A DNA stretch of 32,511 nt from Gemmatimonadaceae bacterium. Its GTDB lineage: Bacteria; Gemmatimonadota; Gemmatimonadetes; Gemmatimonadales; Gemmatimonadaceae. The DNA is taken from positions 1 to 32,511 of the forward strand of contig JALHNZ010000038.1 of NCBI GenBank assembly GCA_022843265.1. Direction: 5' to 3'. This document shows, in pieces, positions 7,472 to 32,511 of this stretch. How positions within the stretch are numbered: position 1 is the stretch's first letter; every line of letters starts with the position of its first letter. The notes under the pieces were generated by a model, which saw only the letters and a program-made list of their open reading frames with translations, was not told where the DNA came from and searched no databases. The translations under genes were made by a program, and so were the position numbers.

Positions 7472-9613
7472 TCAGCGCGGCTTCGGAACGGCGGGTGCCG
7501 CTACGCGATGTGCCGCGTGTGGATCGACGGTTGGCACGCGCTGGCTATCCGCTTTGGCGCTCAACGGCGATCGCAGCTGATTCAGCGCCATGCGTTCGGC
7601 CGCATTGCCTTGATTCGCGGCCATGCGCGCCGCTTGCTGGGCACGACGTGTCGTGGTGGCGCTGAGTGCGACAGTGGAACCTGATGGACCCACGCGTACA
7701 TACCCCTGCATTTCCTGGTGCAACGCTGAGCAGAAGTCGGTGCAGTACATCGGGTACACACCAGCGGTTTTCGGAATCCACTTGAGCGTGCGCGTTTCGC
7801 CGGGCATCACCAGCAACTCGGCATTGGTTGCGCCCATGATGGCGAAGCCGTGGGGTACATCCCAGTCCTGTTCAATGTTGGTCACGTGGAAGAGCACCGT
7901 GTCGCCAGCCTGAATACCCTCAATGTTGTCGGGTGAGAAGCTGGAGCGAATGGCAGACATGCGTACGTGTACCGTTTTTCCCTTCCGCTCGACACCACTT
8001 TCCCGAGCCGAACGTGCAACCTTGGGATGCGTATTCTCGGCCAGTGAGTAGAACTTCTTCTGCTTGTCCTTGATCAGCGCCGCTGGCAGCGCACTGGCGT
8101 AGTGCGGCTCTCCGATCGTGGGGAAGTCGAGCAGCAGCTTCATGCGATCGCCGCTGATATCGTACAGCTGTGCGGAGTGCGCCAGCTCCGGACCGGTCGG
8201 GAGAAAGCGGTCTTTGGTAATCTTGTTCATGGCCAGCGCGTACTTGCCAAACGGCTTCTTGGTATCGCCGCCGGGAATCATGAGATGGCCAACCGAGTAG
8301 TAAGTGGGAATGCGGTCCACCACTTCCCAGGTACCGAGTTTCCACTTCACCACTTCTGACGAGATGAAGATCGACGTGTACGCGTAGCCCTTGCCGTCGA
8401 ACTCGGTGTGCAACGGGCCAAGGCCCGGATCCTGCACTTCGCCCGCGATCGTCGCTTCGTATTTGAGGATCGGCGCGCCGTACGCGTCGCCATCAAAGGC
8501 CTTGTCCTTGATGGCCTGCATCATGCGTGAGAACGAGTGCACCGGAATCACGGTCGCGAGCTTGCCGCCGGCCACGATGTATTCACCGGTGGGGTCAACG
8601 TCTGCACCGTGTGGTGATTTGGGTGTGGGCATGTAATACAGCGAGCCCGGGCACTGCGACGGCTCCAATACTTTCACGCCGCGCTTGACCGTCGCTTTGC
8701 CTTCACGTGAAAACTCATCCATCACGTTGTGATTGTACTCCGCATCCATGGTGCGGAACGTGCCCTTGGCAACGCAGGCTTCGAGCACTTTCCAGTTCAC
8801 CGCGGCAACGTAGTCCTTGTCGTTCTTCGACGCGTTGATTTCAAGCTTCTCAAACGCTTCTTCCGTGTTGTACGACGTGAAGAACACCCAGTCTTCCGAC
8901 GGCCCTTTGCCGGCGCGTGCGAGGTCGTAGTTAAAGCCCGGCACCAGCAACTGAAAGGCGATATCCATCTGCCCGGGCTTGTCGGCGCGGATGAAGCTCA
9001 CCGTGCCTTTGAAGTTGGTCTTGTAGCTTGAGATCGGAACGTCGGCCTGCGGAATCGGCACGCTGAAACGGGTGGCCGCGAGTACGTACTCGGAGTTACC
9101 CGTTATGAACGGTGACGCGTGATTGCCCGCCGAGTTTGGAATCTGCAGGATCTCAGTGGTCTCCATATGCGTGAGATCCACACGCGCGACACGTGGCGTG
9201 TTGTTGCCATTCACAAACAACCAGCGACCGTCCGTCTCGCCATTGGTCTGCGAGAGCGACGTGTGATGCAAATCGTCCCACGGCACAAAGCCGAAGGTTG
9301 TTTCGAGCATCGGTTTGGTTTCTTCGTTGTATCCGTAGCCATTCTCCGGATGCTGCGAAAAAACCGGAATGATCTTGAGTGTACGACCTGACGGCAGGCC
9401 AACAACCGACAGCTGTCCGTTGAAGCCACCCGAGAGGAAAGCGTAGAACTCATCGTGACTGCCAGGCGCGACATACACCTGTGAGGCGACATCGCCTGTT
9501 GCGCCGATCGTACCACCCGATCGTGCTGCGGGGCCACAGCCGTAGGCGTACAGCGCGACAACGGCGAGGCTCGCTGTTGCAACAGTCCATCCGGTGGAGC
9601 GGGAACGAGTCAT
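7472..9613 (-). CDS. nosZ: NosZ, nitrous-oxide reductase, clade II (Sec-type)
   Basis: NosZ reduces N2O to N2 in the periplasm. The 713-residue protein has an N-terminal beta-propeller and a C-terminal cupredoxin domain. The seven expected CuZ histidines are visible in DDLHHTS (two), GNHASPF, SPHGADVD, PLHTEFDG, VGHLMIPG and EPHYAS. The CuA site is complete: His588 in WDVPHGF and the loop CTDFCSALHQEM with Cys624, Cys628, His632 and Met635. The signal region has no twin-arginine motif and ends in YAYGC, so it looks Sec-dependent and possibly lipid-anchored, as in clade II enzymes. I take the ATG at 9613, which starts the signal peptide; the frame is open to 9670. A tail of about 73 residues, rich in Ala, Arg and Gln, follows the CuA domain. 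It is the first gene of the nos operon. Confidence 0.97.
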   Translation of the reverse strand: MTRSRSTGWTVATASLAVVALYAYGCGPAARSGGTIGATGDVASQVYVAPGSHDEFYAFLSGGFNGQLSVVGLPSGRTLKIIPVFSQHPENGYGYNEETKPMLETTFGFVPWDDLHHTSLSQTNGETDGRWLFVNGNNTPRVARVDLTHMETTEILQIPNSAGNHASPFITGNSEYVLAATRFSVPIPQADVPISSYKTNFKGTVSFIRADKPGQMDIAFQLLVPGFNYDLARAGKGPSEDWVFFTSYNTEEAFEKLEINASKNDKDYVAAVNWKVLEACVAKGTFRTMDAEYNHNVMDEFSREGKATVKRGVKVLEPSQCPGSLYYMPTPKSPHGADVDPTGEYIVAGGKLATVIPVHSFSRMMQAIKDKAFDGDAYGAPILKYEATIAGEVQDPGLGPLHTEFDGKGYAYTSIFISSEVVKWKLGTWEVVDRIPTYYSVGHLMIPGGDTKKPFGKYALAMNKITKDRFLPTGPELAHSAQLYDISGDRMKLLLDFPTIGEPHYASALPAALIKDKQKKFYSLAENTHPKVARSARESGVERKGKTVHVRMSAIRSSFSPDNIEGIQAGDTVLFHVTNIEQDWDVPHGFAIMGATNAELLVMPGETRTLKWIPKTAGVYPMYCTDFCSALHQEMQGYVRVGPSGSTVALSATTTRRAQQAARMAANQGNAAERMALNQLRSPLSAKADSQRVPTVDPHAAHRVAAPAVPKPR

Positions 9614-9750
9614 GGGAGTGTCTCGTGGAAGCGTTGAAGTGTCAGCGTGACCAGACAGGCTGTCGATCACTGCTGTGTGCTATAATGTCGCAACGGGGAT
9701 ACCACTTAAGAGTCGGCAGTCTCCGCGCAATGTTGTCGGGGATTCCCTCT
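9614..9750 (-). promoter_or_regulatory. Leader between the DUF2249 gene and nosZ
   Basis: These 137 bases separate the DUF2249-ScdA_N gene from nosZ on the same strand. A weak sigma-70-like pair can be read on the minus strand, TTAAGT then CATTAT with 16 bases between (about 9685-9712). I see no TTGAT-N4-ATCAA FNR/DNR box and no clear terminator. The motif ATCCCCG occurs twice on the minus strand. The site of nosZ transcription start cannot be fixed from sequence. Confidence 0.3.
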
Positions 9751-12152: not shown

Positions 12153-12986
12153 ATGACGAATGCATCCGCTTCTCCCTTCAGCAGCGTGACGCCCCGCCGG
12201 TCGCGGCTTCATGCGTGGACCGCCCGCGTCGTGATATGCGCGTTGGCAACACTCGCGAGCGCCACGAGTCTCATCGAAGCCCAGCGCCCTCCCACTGACC
12301 GCGCCCGCGCGTCCATGCGACGTGTCGCCGCCGAGCGCACGACGCGCTTCGTCAGCGATATGGGCTACGTCAGCACGACGGGCAACACCAAGGTCACCAC
12401 GGTGAATGTGGGTGAAAAATTCAATCTGAACACCGGCTTCTGGCGATTCGAGCAGTTCCTTTCGGTGGTGTACGGCGAGAATGACGGAGCGGTGAACAGC
12501 AACTTCATTCGCGCGGGCATCGGCGGCGAATACGCGCTGCGGTCTACCATGGGTATTGCCGGGGGGATTCTGTTTGACAAGAATCGATTCTCCGGCGTGC
12601 TGCAGCGTACGGAAGAGTACCTCGGGCTCGTGTGGCGCGTGGTGGAGGGGCCACGTGATACGCTGCGACTCGATGCCGGTGGCTCACTGACGCAGCAGCG
12701 GAACATTGACGGCACGGTCCGTCGTTTTCCTGCCGCACGGACGGCGCTGTGGTACAAACGCGGACTGGCACCCAAAGCGTATGTCCTGCAGACCGTCGAA
12801 GTCGTGCCGAACATTGAAACATCGGAAGACTATCGGGTGAATGCGATCGCGTCGCTCATTTCACCCATCTCAAAAGTGCTGGCCGTGAAACTTGAGTTTC
12901 AGTGGCGCTTTGACAATCTGCCCGAACCCGATTTCCAGAGTACGGATCGTATTTTCACGACCGGCATTCAGGTGTCCTTCGAATAA
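12153..12986 (+). CDS. DUF481 outer-membrane beta-barrel protein (copy 1)
   Basis: This 277-residue protein belongs to the DUF481 family of putative outer-membrane beta-barrels (YdiY-like). An N-terminal basic stretch and hydrophobic segment (about 22-40) end in SLIEAQ, a plausible signal peptide. The barrel begins FVSDMGYVSTTGNTKVTTVN, with alternating strands such as FWRFEQFLSVVYGE and RAGIGGEYALRS, and ends in IQVSFE, close to the aromatic C-terminus usual for outer-membrane barrels. The frame extends upstream into nsrR; I use the ATG at 12153. Its function is unknown. It is clearly paralogous to the next gene and follows nsrR by 28 bases, so it is probably in the same transcript. Confidence 0.8.
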   Translation: MTNASASPFSSVTPRRSRLHAWTARVVICALATLASATSLIEAQRPPTDRARASMRRVAAERTTRFVSDMGYVSTTGNTKVTTVNVGEKFNLNTGFWRFEQFLSVVYGENDGAVNSNFIRAGIGGEYALRSTMGIAGGILFDKNRFSGVLQRTEEYLGLVWRVVEGPRDTLRLDAGGSLTQQRNIDGTVRRFPAARTALWYKRGLAPKAYVLQTVEVVPNIETSEDYRVNAIASLISPISKVLAVKLEFQWRFDNLPEPDFQSTDRIFTTGIQVSFE

Positions 12987-30176: not shown

Positions 30177-31433
30177 ATGTTCTTCCGCAAGTTCAGTCTG
30201 GATCGCGGTGGGGCAGCGAAGACGAACTCCACGCCGACGACGACGCCGTCTCCTGCCGAGAGCATTCGCCCGAGCGCCGACGCCTCTGGTACATCGAGTC
30301 TGACCGCCGTGAACGGTGGTCTCTCCGGTCGTTCTCGTCCAACACCAGCGCATGGGCTTTCACTGCGCACGGTCGACGGGCGCGTGGATGAGGTCGGGCT
30401 CGTGCTGGATACGCTCGGCAGCATTCTCACGGCGTTCTCGCGTCACGCGTTTGATTTGCCGGATCGTTCAGCTGAGGAGATCTCAAGCGAGCTGCAGCGT
30501 TGGCAGCGACACGCTACGCTTGGCGTACCGGTGGAGGAGCAGGCCGGCGGCGCGCTTGGCGTGCGTGAGCGTGACTGGGACGGCATTTCGAGAACGTTCA
30601 CGCAACACCGTCGCGAAGAGTCCAGATACGTAGACACGGCGGTCACGGAGTTGCGCGATGCGCTCTGGTCTGTTGTGGAGACGGTGCATAACGCCGTGAA
30701 GGCCGAACAGACGGCTGATCGTGTGACTGACACCGCGGTGCATCGGGCGCGTAGCGCGATGACGCGCATGCAAACGGGTCAGATCAAGCAGGAAGTGCTC
30801 GGGGCGCTGTCCGCTATTGAAGAGGCGTTTCGCGTGCGTCAGCAGCAAATGCAGGCGCAGTATCAGGCGTTGGCCGGCCGCATTGAGAATCTTGGCCACC
30901 AGCTCGAAGAAGCGAAGAAGGAGAGCACCACCGACGCGCTCACCGGGCTGGGCAATCGCAAGCTGTTCGACGCCATGGCGCATCGGGCCGTGCACATGCA
31001 CGCGCTCTCCCGACAGCCTGTGGTGCTGGTGCTGGTCGACCTGGACAAGTTCAAGATGGTGAACGACATGTACGGCCATCAGGCGGGCGACCAGACCCTC
31101 GTGAACGTGGCGAAATGCCTGTCCAAGGTGTTCATGCGCCAGACGGACGTGGTCTGCCGCTACGGCGGCGACGAGTACGCGGTGGTGCTGAACAACACCG
31201 ACCTCAAGGTGGCGCAGATGCTGTCGCACCGATTGGTGGAGGCGATTGGTGAGATGCCCACGCCGCACCAGTCCATGGAGTTTGCAGTTGGCGCGTCGAT
31301 GGGAATCGCCGAGTACGACGGCGAGGAGAATCTGGAGGCGTGGATCGCGCGGGCGGACCGGGCGTTGTACACGGCGAAGCAGATGGCCGGGGACCGGATT
31401 GCGGTGGCGGGGGCGACGTTGGCGGTGAGTTAG
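30177..31433 (+). CDS. Diguanylate cyclase (GGDEF domain)
   Basis: This 418-residue protein makes cyclic di-GMP. Residues 1-60 are Ser/Thr/Pro-rich and look unstructured. Residues 60-255 are mainly helical with coiled-coil character (VLGALSAIEEAFRVRQQQMQ) and hold no recognised sensor domain. The GGDEF domain covers about 258-412: DALTGLGNRKLFD, VDLDKFKMVNDMYGH, and the active site GGDEY at 330-334. An inhibitory I-site RQTD (321-324) lies exactly five residues before it, so product inhibition is likely. There is no membrane segment. No ribosome binding site precedes the ATG at 30177, which directly abuts a terminator-like T-run. No other start gives a better site before residue 40. Confidence 0.9.
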   Translation: MFFRKFSLDRGGAAKTNSTPTTTPSPAESIRPSADASGTSSLTAVNGGLSGRSRPTPAHGLSLRTVDGRVDEVGLVLDTLGSILTAFSRHAFDLPDRSAEEISSELQRWQRHATLGVPVEEQAGGALGVRERDWDGISRTFTQHRREESRYVDTAVTELRDALWSVVETVHNAVKAEQTADRVTDTAVHRARSAMTRMQTGQIKQEVLGALSAIEEAFRVRQQQMQAQYQALAGRIENLGHQLEEAKKESTTDALTGLGNRKLFDAMAHRAVHMHALSRQPVVLVLVDLDKFKMVNDMYGHQAGDQTLVNVAKCLSKVFMRQTDVVCRYGGDEYAVVLNNTDLKVAQMLSHRLVEAIGEMPTPHQSMEFAVGASMGIAEYDGEENLEAWIARADRALYTAKQMAGDRIAVAGATLAVS

Positions 31434-31462
31434 TGGCGTTAAGAGGTAGTGATACGAGTCAC

Positions 31463-31500
31463 GGGCAGGCCGCCGTTAGCAGGCGGTCTGTCCGTTTTCT
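31463..31500 (+). terminator. Intrinsic terminator of the diguanylate cyclase gene
   Basis: CAGGCCGCC (31466-31474) pairs with GGCGGTCTG (31482-31490), one pair being G-T, with a 7-base loop. Two further pairs follow beyond a one-base bulge, then TTTTCT. It lies 30 bases past the stop. Confidence 0.75.
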
Positions 31501-31707
31501 ACTTGAGTTGGCGGGCTGGACCGTAGCGGAGTTGGGTCATACTGTTGCGTCTCCGCGACGGCGGACGTGCTGACTTGAACAGCTGGTTCCTGAACCCGGA
31601 AACTCCTGTCACGTTCGTTAAGCTGTAAGGCTTGATGAAGTAACGTCTTCCCTTATTAGGAATGTCTCGATCCTGCGCTTTCCCTATTCGACGATCTTTC
31701 ACGTGAG

Positions 31708-31724
31708 TTGGCATGCTGATTGCA
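31708..31724 (+). promoter_or_regulatory. Sigma-54 (-24/-12) promoter of the PEP-CTERM gene
   Basis: TTGGCATG-CTGA-TTGCA matches the sigma-54 consensus TTGGCACG-N4-TTGCA at all but one defined base. The invariant GG (31710-31711) and GC (31722-31723) are exactly 10 bases apart. Transcription would start near 31735, leaving a leader of about 65 bases. PEP-CTERM genes are known to be driven by sigma-54 with the PrsK/PrsR two-component system in several bacteria. Confidence 0.8.
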
Positions 31725-31801
31725 CTAATGGCGGCCAAGCGGAGTTAGGTCGCTTTCATCGCAACTTGCGATTCTATCACTTTTTAAATGGTCGAGATGG
31801 C

Positions 31802-32428
31802 ATGACTAACAAGAGCTATTTGATCGCCAGCCTCGCCGCGCTGCTGACTGTGCCCGCTTCTTCGGCGCAGGCTGCGCCGCCGCCTCCGGCGTCGCTCCCC
31901 AACTGCAATGCAGCGGCCACGTTTGCATCGAAGCCGATGACGTTTGTTTCATGCTTTGGTGCTCTCGCGGGCAACGACGACATGCCTGGCATCGCGGCGC
32001 AGGTATCGACGTCCTTTGCGGCGTTCATCGGCGGTGCCACAGTAACCAACTTGGGTAAGTCTGACGCGGCAGGTGCAGGGCCGTTCACTGCCAACGTGAC
32101 CTCTGCTTTTGGTACGCTCAACTTTGACTCCCCCCAGTTCGGATACTTCGCGCTGATTTTGAAGGGATCAACCGCTTATAGCGGCTATCTCTTCAATGCT
32201 GGTGCGGCGGGAATGAGCTCTGTCGACTTCAACATGGCCGGAACGGCCGTGAACGCGAACAATGTCGTACAGGGGCTCTCGCATGCTCGCCTGCTCAGCA
32301 TTCAGAGCCCGGCAGGTGGTTGCGTTGGCTGCGAACCCAACATCGTTCCTGAGCCTTCCTCGTTCGCTCTGATGTTTGGTGGGCTCCTCGGCATGGGCGT
32401 CGCCGCCCGCCGTCGTCGCAACTCGTAA
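31802..32428 (+). CDS. PEP-CTERM sorting-signal secreted protein
   Basis: This 208-residue exported protein has a signal peptide (MTNKSYLIASLAALL, cut near SSAQA) and a textbook PEP-CTERM tail: VPEP at 182-185, a hydrophobic segment (FALMFGGLLGMGVAA) and a basic RRRRNS end. Such tails are recognised by exosortase (EpsH/XrtA) and are typical of bacteria that make an extracellular polysaccharide matrix. The mature part is Gly/Ala/Asn-rich with four cysteines (PNCNA, VSCFG and GGCVGCEP) and no known enzymatic motif. I choose the ATG at 31802 because it gives the signal peptide and lies downstream of the sigma-54 promoter; the frame is open to 31703, inside that promoter. No exosortase is in the window. 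A strong terminator follows. Confidence 0.9.
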   Translation: MTNKSYLIASLAALLTVPASSAQAAPPPPASLPNCNAAATFASKPMTFVSCFGALAGNDDMPGIAAQVSTSFAAFIGGATVTNLGKSDAAGAGPFTANVTSAFGTLNFDSPQFGYFALILKGSTAYSGYLFNAGAAGMSSVDFNMAGTAVNANNVVQGLSHARLLSIQSPAGGCVGCEPNIVPEPSSFALMFGGLLGMGVAARRRRNS

Positions 32429-32446
32429 TCAGCTCGCACGAACTTG

Positions 32447-32484
32447 AAGCGCCCCGGTCCTCACGGACCGGGGCGCTTTTGTTT
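32447..32484 (+). terminator. Strong intrinsic terminator after the PEP-CTERM gene
   Basis: GCGCCCCGGTCC (32449-32460) and GGACCGGGGCGC (32465-32476) form a perfect 12-bp stem, extended to 14 with two A-T pairs, with a TCAC loop and a TTTTGTTTT tail. It begins about 20 bases after the stop. Confidence 0.95.
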
Positions 32485-32511
32485 TCGACCCACGCGCAAC
32501 ATTCTGCGCAC

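Follow-up and report, generated by a model that had tools for sequence, protein, structure and literature searches.

The window, by which we mean the whole 32,511-nt stretch of DNA that was analyzed, carries near its end a gene for a PEP-CTERM protein. The gene is quite likely part of a regulon in which sigma-54 controls surface proteins that are sorted by exosortase in this Gemmatimonadaceae bacterium. In the mechanism that we propose, RNA polymerase with sigma-54 (RpoN, encoded on contig C33) would sit closed at a -24/-12 element ahead of the gene, and a phosphorylated NtrC-type activator, bound ~150 nt further upstream at an inverted repeat (TGTYGC-N6-GCRACA), would open the promoter. The product would then be exported via its predicted signal peptide and probably be stabilized by a C35-C51 disulfide, its PEP tail would be handled by the single exosortase detected in the genome, which is encoded on contig C59 near polysaccharide export and glycosyltransferase genes, and the protein would most likely join the extracellular matrix. 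On balance, we lean toward the broader reading that the Gemmatimonadaceae, which lie outside the Proteobacteria, run a sigma-54 PEP-CTERM regulon in which the enhancer code is their own (TGTYGC-N6-GCRACA) and the activator is something other than PrsR.

The features of the locus are collected in Table 1. A palindrome similar to ATCGCAACTTGCGAT is visible by eye in the leader of the closest orthologue (genome G136). Taken whole, the predicted leader of the window gene folds no better than its shuffles (z -0.02). A search for sigma-70-type promoters at 31400-32511 found none (shuffles 0.3). Elsewhere in the window, on the minus strand at 7472-9670, lies a gene for a nitrous-oxide-reductase-like protein (nos_propeller match), whose adjoining ORFs resemble accessory and ABC-transporter genes by eye.

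Table 1. Features at and around the PEP-CTERM gene, in window coordinates.
Feature	Position	Strand	Basis or remark
GGDEF gene	30177-31433		GGDEF domain match; upstream neighbor of the PEP-CTERM gene
Terminator-like hairpin, intrinsic	31461-31495	+	14 pairs, T-rich tail; 3' of the upstream GGDEF gene
Inverted repeat TGTTGCGTCTCCGCGACG	31543-31560	.	1 mismatch to TGTYGC-N6-GCRACA; probable enhancer (predicted activator site)
Sigma-54-type -24/-12 element TGGCATGCTGATTGCA	31709-31724	+	Pattern match and position
Predicted transcript start	31735	+	Inferred from the element; 12 nt past the -12 C
Palindrome ATCGCAACTTGCGAT, perfect	31758-31772	+	Within the predicted 5' leader
PEP-CTERM protein gene, 208 aa	31802-32428	+	ATG at 31802; apparently a single-gene unit
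Predicted signal peptide, residues 1-24, SAQA end	31802-31873	+	Read by eye from the sequence
C35-to-C51 segment	31904-31954	+	Both Cys invariant in 15/15 aligned homologues; disulfide inferred
C174-V-G-C177 pair ahead of the tail	32321-32332	+	Alignment of 15 homologues
PEP-CTERM sorting tail: VPEP, hydrophobic stretch, RRRR	32345-32419	+	Profile matches
Strong intrinsic terminator-like hairpin	32446-32479	+	15 pairs

The original prediction had described the gene as encoding a PEP-CTERM protein with a mature domain that it did not recognize, and the PEP-CTERM tail was borne out. The tail exceeds the curated cut-offs of PF07589 (25.8 bits; cut-off 20.7) and TIGR02595 (28.1 bits in the genome search and 24.2 bits with the protein; cut-off 16), and it is the only part of the protein matched by Pfam. 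With the tail attached, all 15 of the homologues described below match NF038129 and 14 of them match PepA (E ≤0.01), yet no NCBIfam family matches the mature domain once the tail is removed. We therefore rejected its assignment to PepA, NF038129, or any other named PEP-CTERM family. Neither the protein nor a 15-member profile matched any solved structure, the protein had no match in PHROGs or in a plasmid search, and contig scans with the protein and with the exosortase found no relative. Single-sequence structure prediction gave a mean pLDDT of 38.4, which is of no use for the fold. The domain does recur in relatives of the same family: at E ≤0.001, 45 of 250 genomes of the order contain a match, many by the tail only, and among 15 chosen homologues covering most of the protein, the invariant positions are C35, C51, G114, S127, Y129, G147, S160, H161, and the PEP tail. 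C35 and C51 are common to all of these homologues and are probably bridged. The four cysteines had been expected just before the tail, which is true of C174 and C177 (GGCVGC), whereas C35 and C51 lie near the mature N-terminus. Among the 15 aligned homologues, the GGCVGC pair is common only to the window protein and its closest orthologue, and four more homologues (L092, L096, L097, and L098) have a differently spaced cysteine pair before the tail. Across the 98 PEP-CTERM proteins of the own and held-out genomes, a set without the 71 from six relatives, C-x(1-4)-C occurs close before the tail in two. A very small predicted PEP-CTERM protein of ~64 aa (C23:50643-50720) has CEDC close before its tail and almost nothing else.

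The element TGGCATGCTGATTGCA has a single mismatch to TGGCACGNNNNTTGCW, the sigma-54 -24/-12 consensus, and 77 nt separate its last base from the ATG, in agreement with the predicted one-base difference and placement 78 bases 5' of the start. The bare pattern does not exceed chance in the window, where 11 matches were found with ≤2 mismatches vs 10.03 expected, and genome-wide there are 107 matches within one mismatch of TGGCAYGNNNNTTGCW, fewer than for the reversed pattern (129). The case for sigma-54 at TGGCATGCTGATTGCA thus rests on position. Exact TGGCAYGNNNNTTGCW sites number only four in the genome, and two of the four are directly upstream of PEP-CTERM genes (the window gene and C9:73387). 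Another of the four falls on C164, a short contig on which a long cysteine-rich ORF (C164:1894-4881) looks eukaryotic by eye and is possibly contamination of the draft genome. An exact consensus also lies inside an export-protein ORF (C59:8645-8660), ~150 nt before a sugar-transferase gene, and may be an internal promoter or chance.

Position was assessed in two sets of PEP-CTERM genes. The derivation set combined all 25 TIGR02595 matches of the own genome (23 above cut-off) with 71 of the 105 matches from six relatives, and three of these 96 were dropped for short upstream regions, leaving 93. Start codons were picked by a simple rule (a hydrophobic stretch plus a basic residue), and the choice for the gene on C153 is probably wrong. 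The held-out set comprised 74 of the 196 matches in eight genomes, mostly the better scoring, whose promoters had not previously been looked at as a set; one was dropped, leaving 73. Among the 93 derivation genes, 29 have an element with up to two mismatches whose distance to the start is 30-150 nt (with the reversed pattern, 3; on the opposite strand, 1; in 100 dinucleotide shuffles, mean 1.53, maximum 5), as do 25 of the 73 held-out genes (on the opposite strand, 1; in 50 shuffles, mean 0.78, maximum 3), with the caveat that genes from related genomes are not mutually independent in any of these counts. Both frequencies are far above the shuffles. The search for other genes with the same promoter, which the original prediction had proposed as a check, thus finds such elements before other PEP-CTERM genes. 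Of these 54 elements, 45 sit 45-81 nt before the start. Within the own genome, 10 of 24 PEP-CTERM genes have an element by the same definition (shuffles 0.36) and 14 are without one, while 5 of 24 have one within a single mismatch (shuffles 0.02); these 24 include two genes below the PEP-CTERM cut-off (C3:58014 and C16:10670), the latter un-PEP-CTERM-like by eye. The frequency is uneven by genome, ranging from 8/15 in G223 and 6/9 in G194 to 3/19 in G010, which belongs to the same family as the source genome, and 0/14 in G116. The closest orthologue of the window gene (G136; 63-64%) has a weaker element, with three mismatches, ~87 nt before the aligned start, and an upstream alignment with two G136 orthologues gave no clear footprint, the aligner having failed to line up even the two elements. 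Overall, the positional enrichment in both gene sets supports a predicted sigma-54-type promoter at this site. Two arrangements in the own genome are worth recording: one PEP-CTERM gene on C9 is preceded by two tandem sigma-54-like elements, at 73387-73402 and 73510-73525, lying 49 and 172 nt before it, and at C17:54882-56613 two adjacent, similar-looking PEP-CTERM genes have one sigma-54-like element apiece, 77 and 56 nt upstream.

The genome encodes both a sigma-54 factor and an exosortase, as had been anticipated. A gene for rpoN is present once (C33; PF04552, 207 bits), and its translation contains ARRTVAKYR, which we take to be the RpoN box. The single exosortase detected (C59:10837-12447) matches PF09721 at 145 bits and TIGR02602 at 143 bits (cut-off 105.55), and it has a fused EpsI domain (50.6 bits over 42.8). 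Contig C59 also encodes a polysaccharide tyrosine kinase (TIGR01007, above cut-off) and holds four PEP-CTERM genes; its further genes include an export protein, a sugar transferase, and a glycosyltransferase, named by best NCBIfam matches that are below cut-offs. On the same contig is an NtrC-type response regulator (C59:2379-4004) with receiver, sigma-54 interaction, and Fis-type domains, adjoined by a kinase (C59:1269-2372) for which Pfam shows an ATPase domain only. Its position beside the exosortase/polysaccharide cluster makes this regulator the best candidate for the activator, and regulator and kinase together are candidates for a functional analogue of PrsR/PrsK near exosortase and polysaccharide genes. 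In G136 and G112, neither of the two was found next to the exosortase.

A sizeable possibility, though not the one that we favor, is that sigma-54 control is real and a different NtrC-type activator operates it, so that the PEP-CTERM genes would follow pili, flagella, or some other state of the cell. Against the PrsR model, the NtrC-type regulators on C67, C28, and C121 all outscore the C59 regulator (C28:15176-16564, 384.6 bits; C121:2853-4409, 372.9 bits; C59, 367.7 bits), a pilin-like ORF (C28:14579-15016) stands beside the C28 regulator, and the C121 regulator adjoins a flagellar-type ORF, both ORFs having been named by eye. However, the C28 and C121 regulators are not close to the exosortase cluster, and no copy of the inverted repeat within one mismatch was found in the stretches around them, although none was found around the C59 regulator either. 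The C59 regulator is our candidate by its position only.

The inverted repeat TGTYGC-N6-GCRACA was recognized in the 200 nt upstream of 38 elements, namely 31 with ≤2 mismatches at 15-150 nt and seven with three mismatches and an intact core. It is shared within one mismatch by 12 of the 38 (30 shuffles, mean 0.17, maximum 1; the other 12 spacings, 0-2) and within two mismatches by 19 (shuffles, mean 1.97, maximum 5; other spacings, 1-8), and at the latter threshold some other spacings also exceed the shuffle mean (spacing 4, 8 vs 2.53 in shuffles; spacings 1 and 9, 6 each). The pattern was assembled from words in word counts, and the 38-site count is therefore not independent of the data from which it was built. 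Having been derived from these 38 sites, the pattern was tested on the eight other genomes, which provide an independent test. Among the 25 held-out genes with an element, 13 have the repeat within two mismatches (shuffles, mean 1.4; other spacings, 0-5) and two have it within one (shuffles 0.07). The 13 copies are also symmetric at positions that the pattern does not impose, with a purine at position 7 in 12 of them and a pyrimidine at position 12 in 11. Repeats lie 81-182 nt upstream of the elements with ≤2 mismatches, and a palindrome at such a distance from a sigma-54 element is the expected site of an NtrC-type activator. The window copy, TGTTGCGTCTCCGCGACG, is 148 nt before the -24/-12 element and is the sole site within one mismatch in the window; the best repeat of the G136 orthologue has three mismatches. 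On its own the repeat is unspecific, with 127 genomic sites within one mismatch vs 110 for the reversed pattern. As a composite of repeat and element (two mismatches each, 60-160 nt apart), it occurs at one place in the window, counting both strands, and this place is before the PEP-CTERM gene. Of 74 held-out upstream regions, 13 contain the composite (none on the opposite strand). The control loci have it at nine sites in 474,888 strand-bases (reversed control 0); one of the nine is the window itself, and a sigma-54-like match had been the reason for choosing many of these loci. Two copies of the repeat, each with one mismatch, abut at C59:12532-12567 (at 12532 and 12550), with the divergent exosortase gene on one side and, on the other, a PEP-CTERM gene whose own sigma-54 element is at 12676. 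Taken together, the repeat is a probable enhancer that the activator would bind. At C36:12562-12579, an exact TGTYGC-N6-GCRACA precedes a PEP-CTERM gene lacking a good sigma-54 element.

We consider it unlikely that the repeat is instead the site of a repressor or unrelated regulator, with the sigma-54 activator binding elsewhere. Such a site would fit the finding that held-out genes without a good element also carry the repeat, 6 of 48 within one mismatch (shuffles 0.23) and 19 of 48 within two (shuffles 3.2), and that the spacing-0 form is raised in these same genes (4 of 48 within one mismatch; shuffles 0.43). However, some of these 48 genes carry elements with three mismatches, and the distance of the repeat upstream of the elements is the usual place of an enhancer. 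Furthermore, no rival motif stood out, since in the word counts every single word and dyad stayed within the shuffle maximum.

The original prediction had attributed the promoter to a PrsK/PrsR-type system. This holds in the loose sense of sigma-54 with an NtrC-type activator, and only in that sense, because no match passes the cut-off of either model: none of 36 PrsR matches (TIGR02915) reaches 502.6 bits, the best being 393.3 in a draft genome that is 95% complete, and none of 49 PrsK matches (TIGR02916) reaches 300 bits, the best being 92.6. Strict membership of either family was accordingly rejected. In the same assembly, 16S rRNA was not found by a search that was positive in 9 of 14 control genomes. 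A true PrsK/PrsR pair driving the promoter as in Proteobacteria is, in our estimation, very improbable. The layout is the same, since in that system the distance from the sigma-54 element to the PEP-CTERM start averages 71 nt (Haft et al. 2006; PMC1569441), compared with 77 nt here, and an NtrC-type regulator is again found near polysaccharide genes. However, beyond the model scores, the kinase beside the C59 regulator shows only an ATPase domain in Pfam, and the regulatory motifs were, among the species of that paper, confined to Proteobacteria (PMC1569441). Its second motif, of 17 nt and ending in TTTACA, lies a mean of 62.8 nt (32-92) upstream of the element (PMC1569441), and here an exact TTTACA at that spacing precedes none of the 38 elements, with only 0.4 expected from shuffles; forms with one mismatch precede 9 of 38, an uncontrolled count. 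As for the -24/-12 match being a product of chance, the unremarkable frequency of the bare pattern in the window and genome would allow it, but the positional enrichment in the derivation and held-out genes leads us to reject it for the gene set and to give it practically no weight for this gene.

If the regulon is as we propose, exosortase substrates either came under sigma-54 before the PrsK/PrsR pair arose or were placed under it on two occasions. A second phylum with this promoter logic, but with an enhancer of another kind, would give a regulon of exosortase-dependent surface proteins in Gemmatimonadota that can be read from sequence, and TGTYGC-N6-GCRACA would be a motif usable for finding the activator.

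Several known systems can be set beside this one. A comparative survey tied sigma-54 promoters to exopolysaccharide and other envelope genes and includes Gemmatimonas in a phylum figure, with PEP-CTERM and exosortase having no occurrence in its main text (PMC3162934). A transcriptome of G. phototrophica names one light-induced PEP-CTERM gene, RpoN having no occurrence in the available text (PMC11406998), and in the open-licence PMC literature, as far as its texts were available, we found no report of a sigma-54-run PEP-CTERM regulon in Gemmatimonadota. The exosortase on C59 passes the general model TIGR02602 and has the EpsI domain in the same protein, but it falls below the model for exosortase A (XrtA/EpsH; TIGR03109), with 167.4 bits vs a cut-off of 208. 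The pepA gene of Aquincola tertiaricarbonis is likewise a PEP-CTERM gene behind a -24/-12 promoter; it is RpoN1-dependent, and its start was mapped by primer extension behind the -24/-12 motifs (PMC9850573). Unlike the present genome, Aquincola is a Proteobacterium with PrsK/PrsR (PMC9850573), and the window protein scores 25.6 bits against floc_PepA (NF033554; cut-off 80), with nothing left without the tail. The closest counterpart is the proteobacterial system of Haft et al., through which sigma-54 control of PEP-CTERM genes is already described for Proteobacteria in connection with PrsK/PrsR, with PrsT as a further component (PMC1569441). Both have single-gene units, a sigma-54 element ~70 nt upstream, a second motif further 5', and an NtrC-type regulator near polysaccharide genes (PMC1569441), whereas the present system has no PrsK/PrsR equivalog over cut-off and a non-proteobacterial host. 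The second motif is 18 nt here (TGTYGC-N6-GCRACA) and 17 nt in Proteobacteria, a comparison of sequence that covers the TTTACA end, and it is 81-182 nt from the element here vs the shorter proteobacterial spacing given above (PMC1569441). The promoter part is thus of the same kind as the proteobacterial one, and what is new is an upstream repeat that differs from the proteobacterial upstream motif in both sequence and distance.
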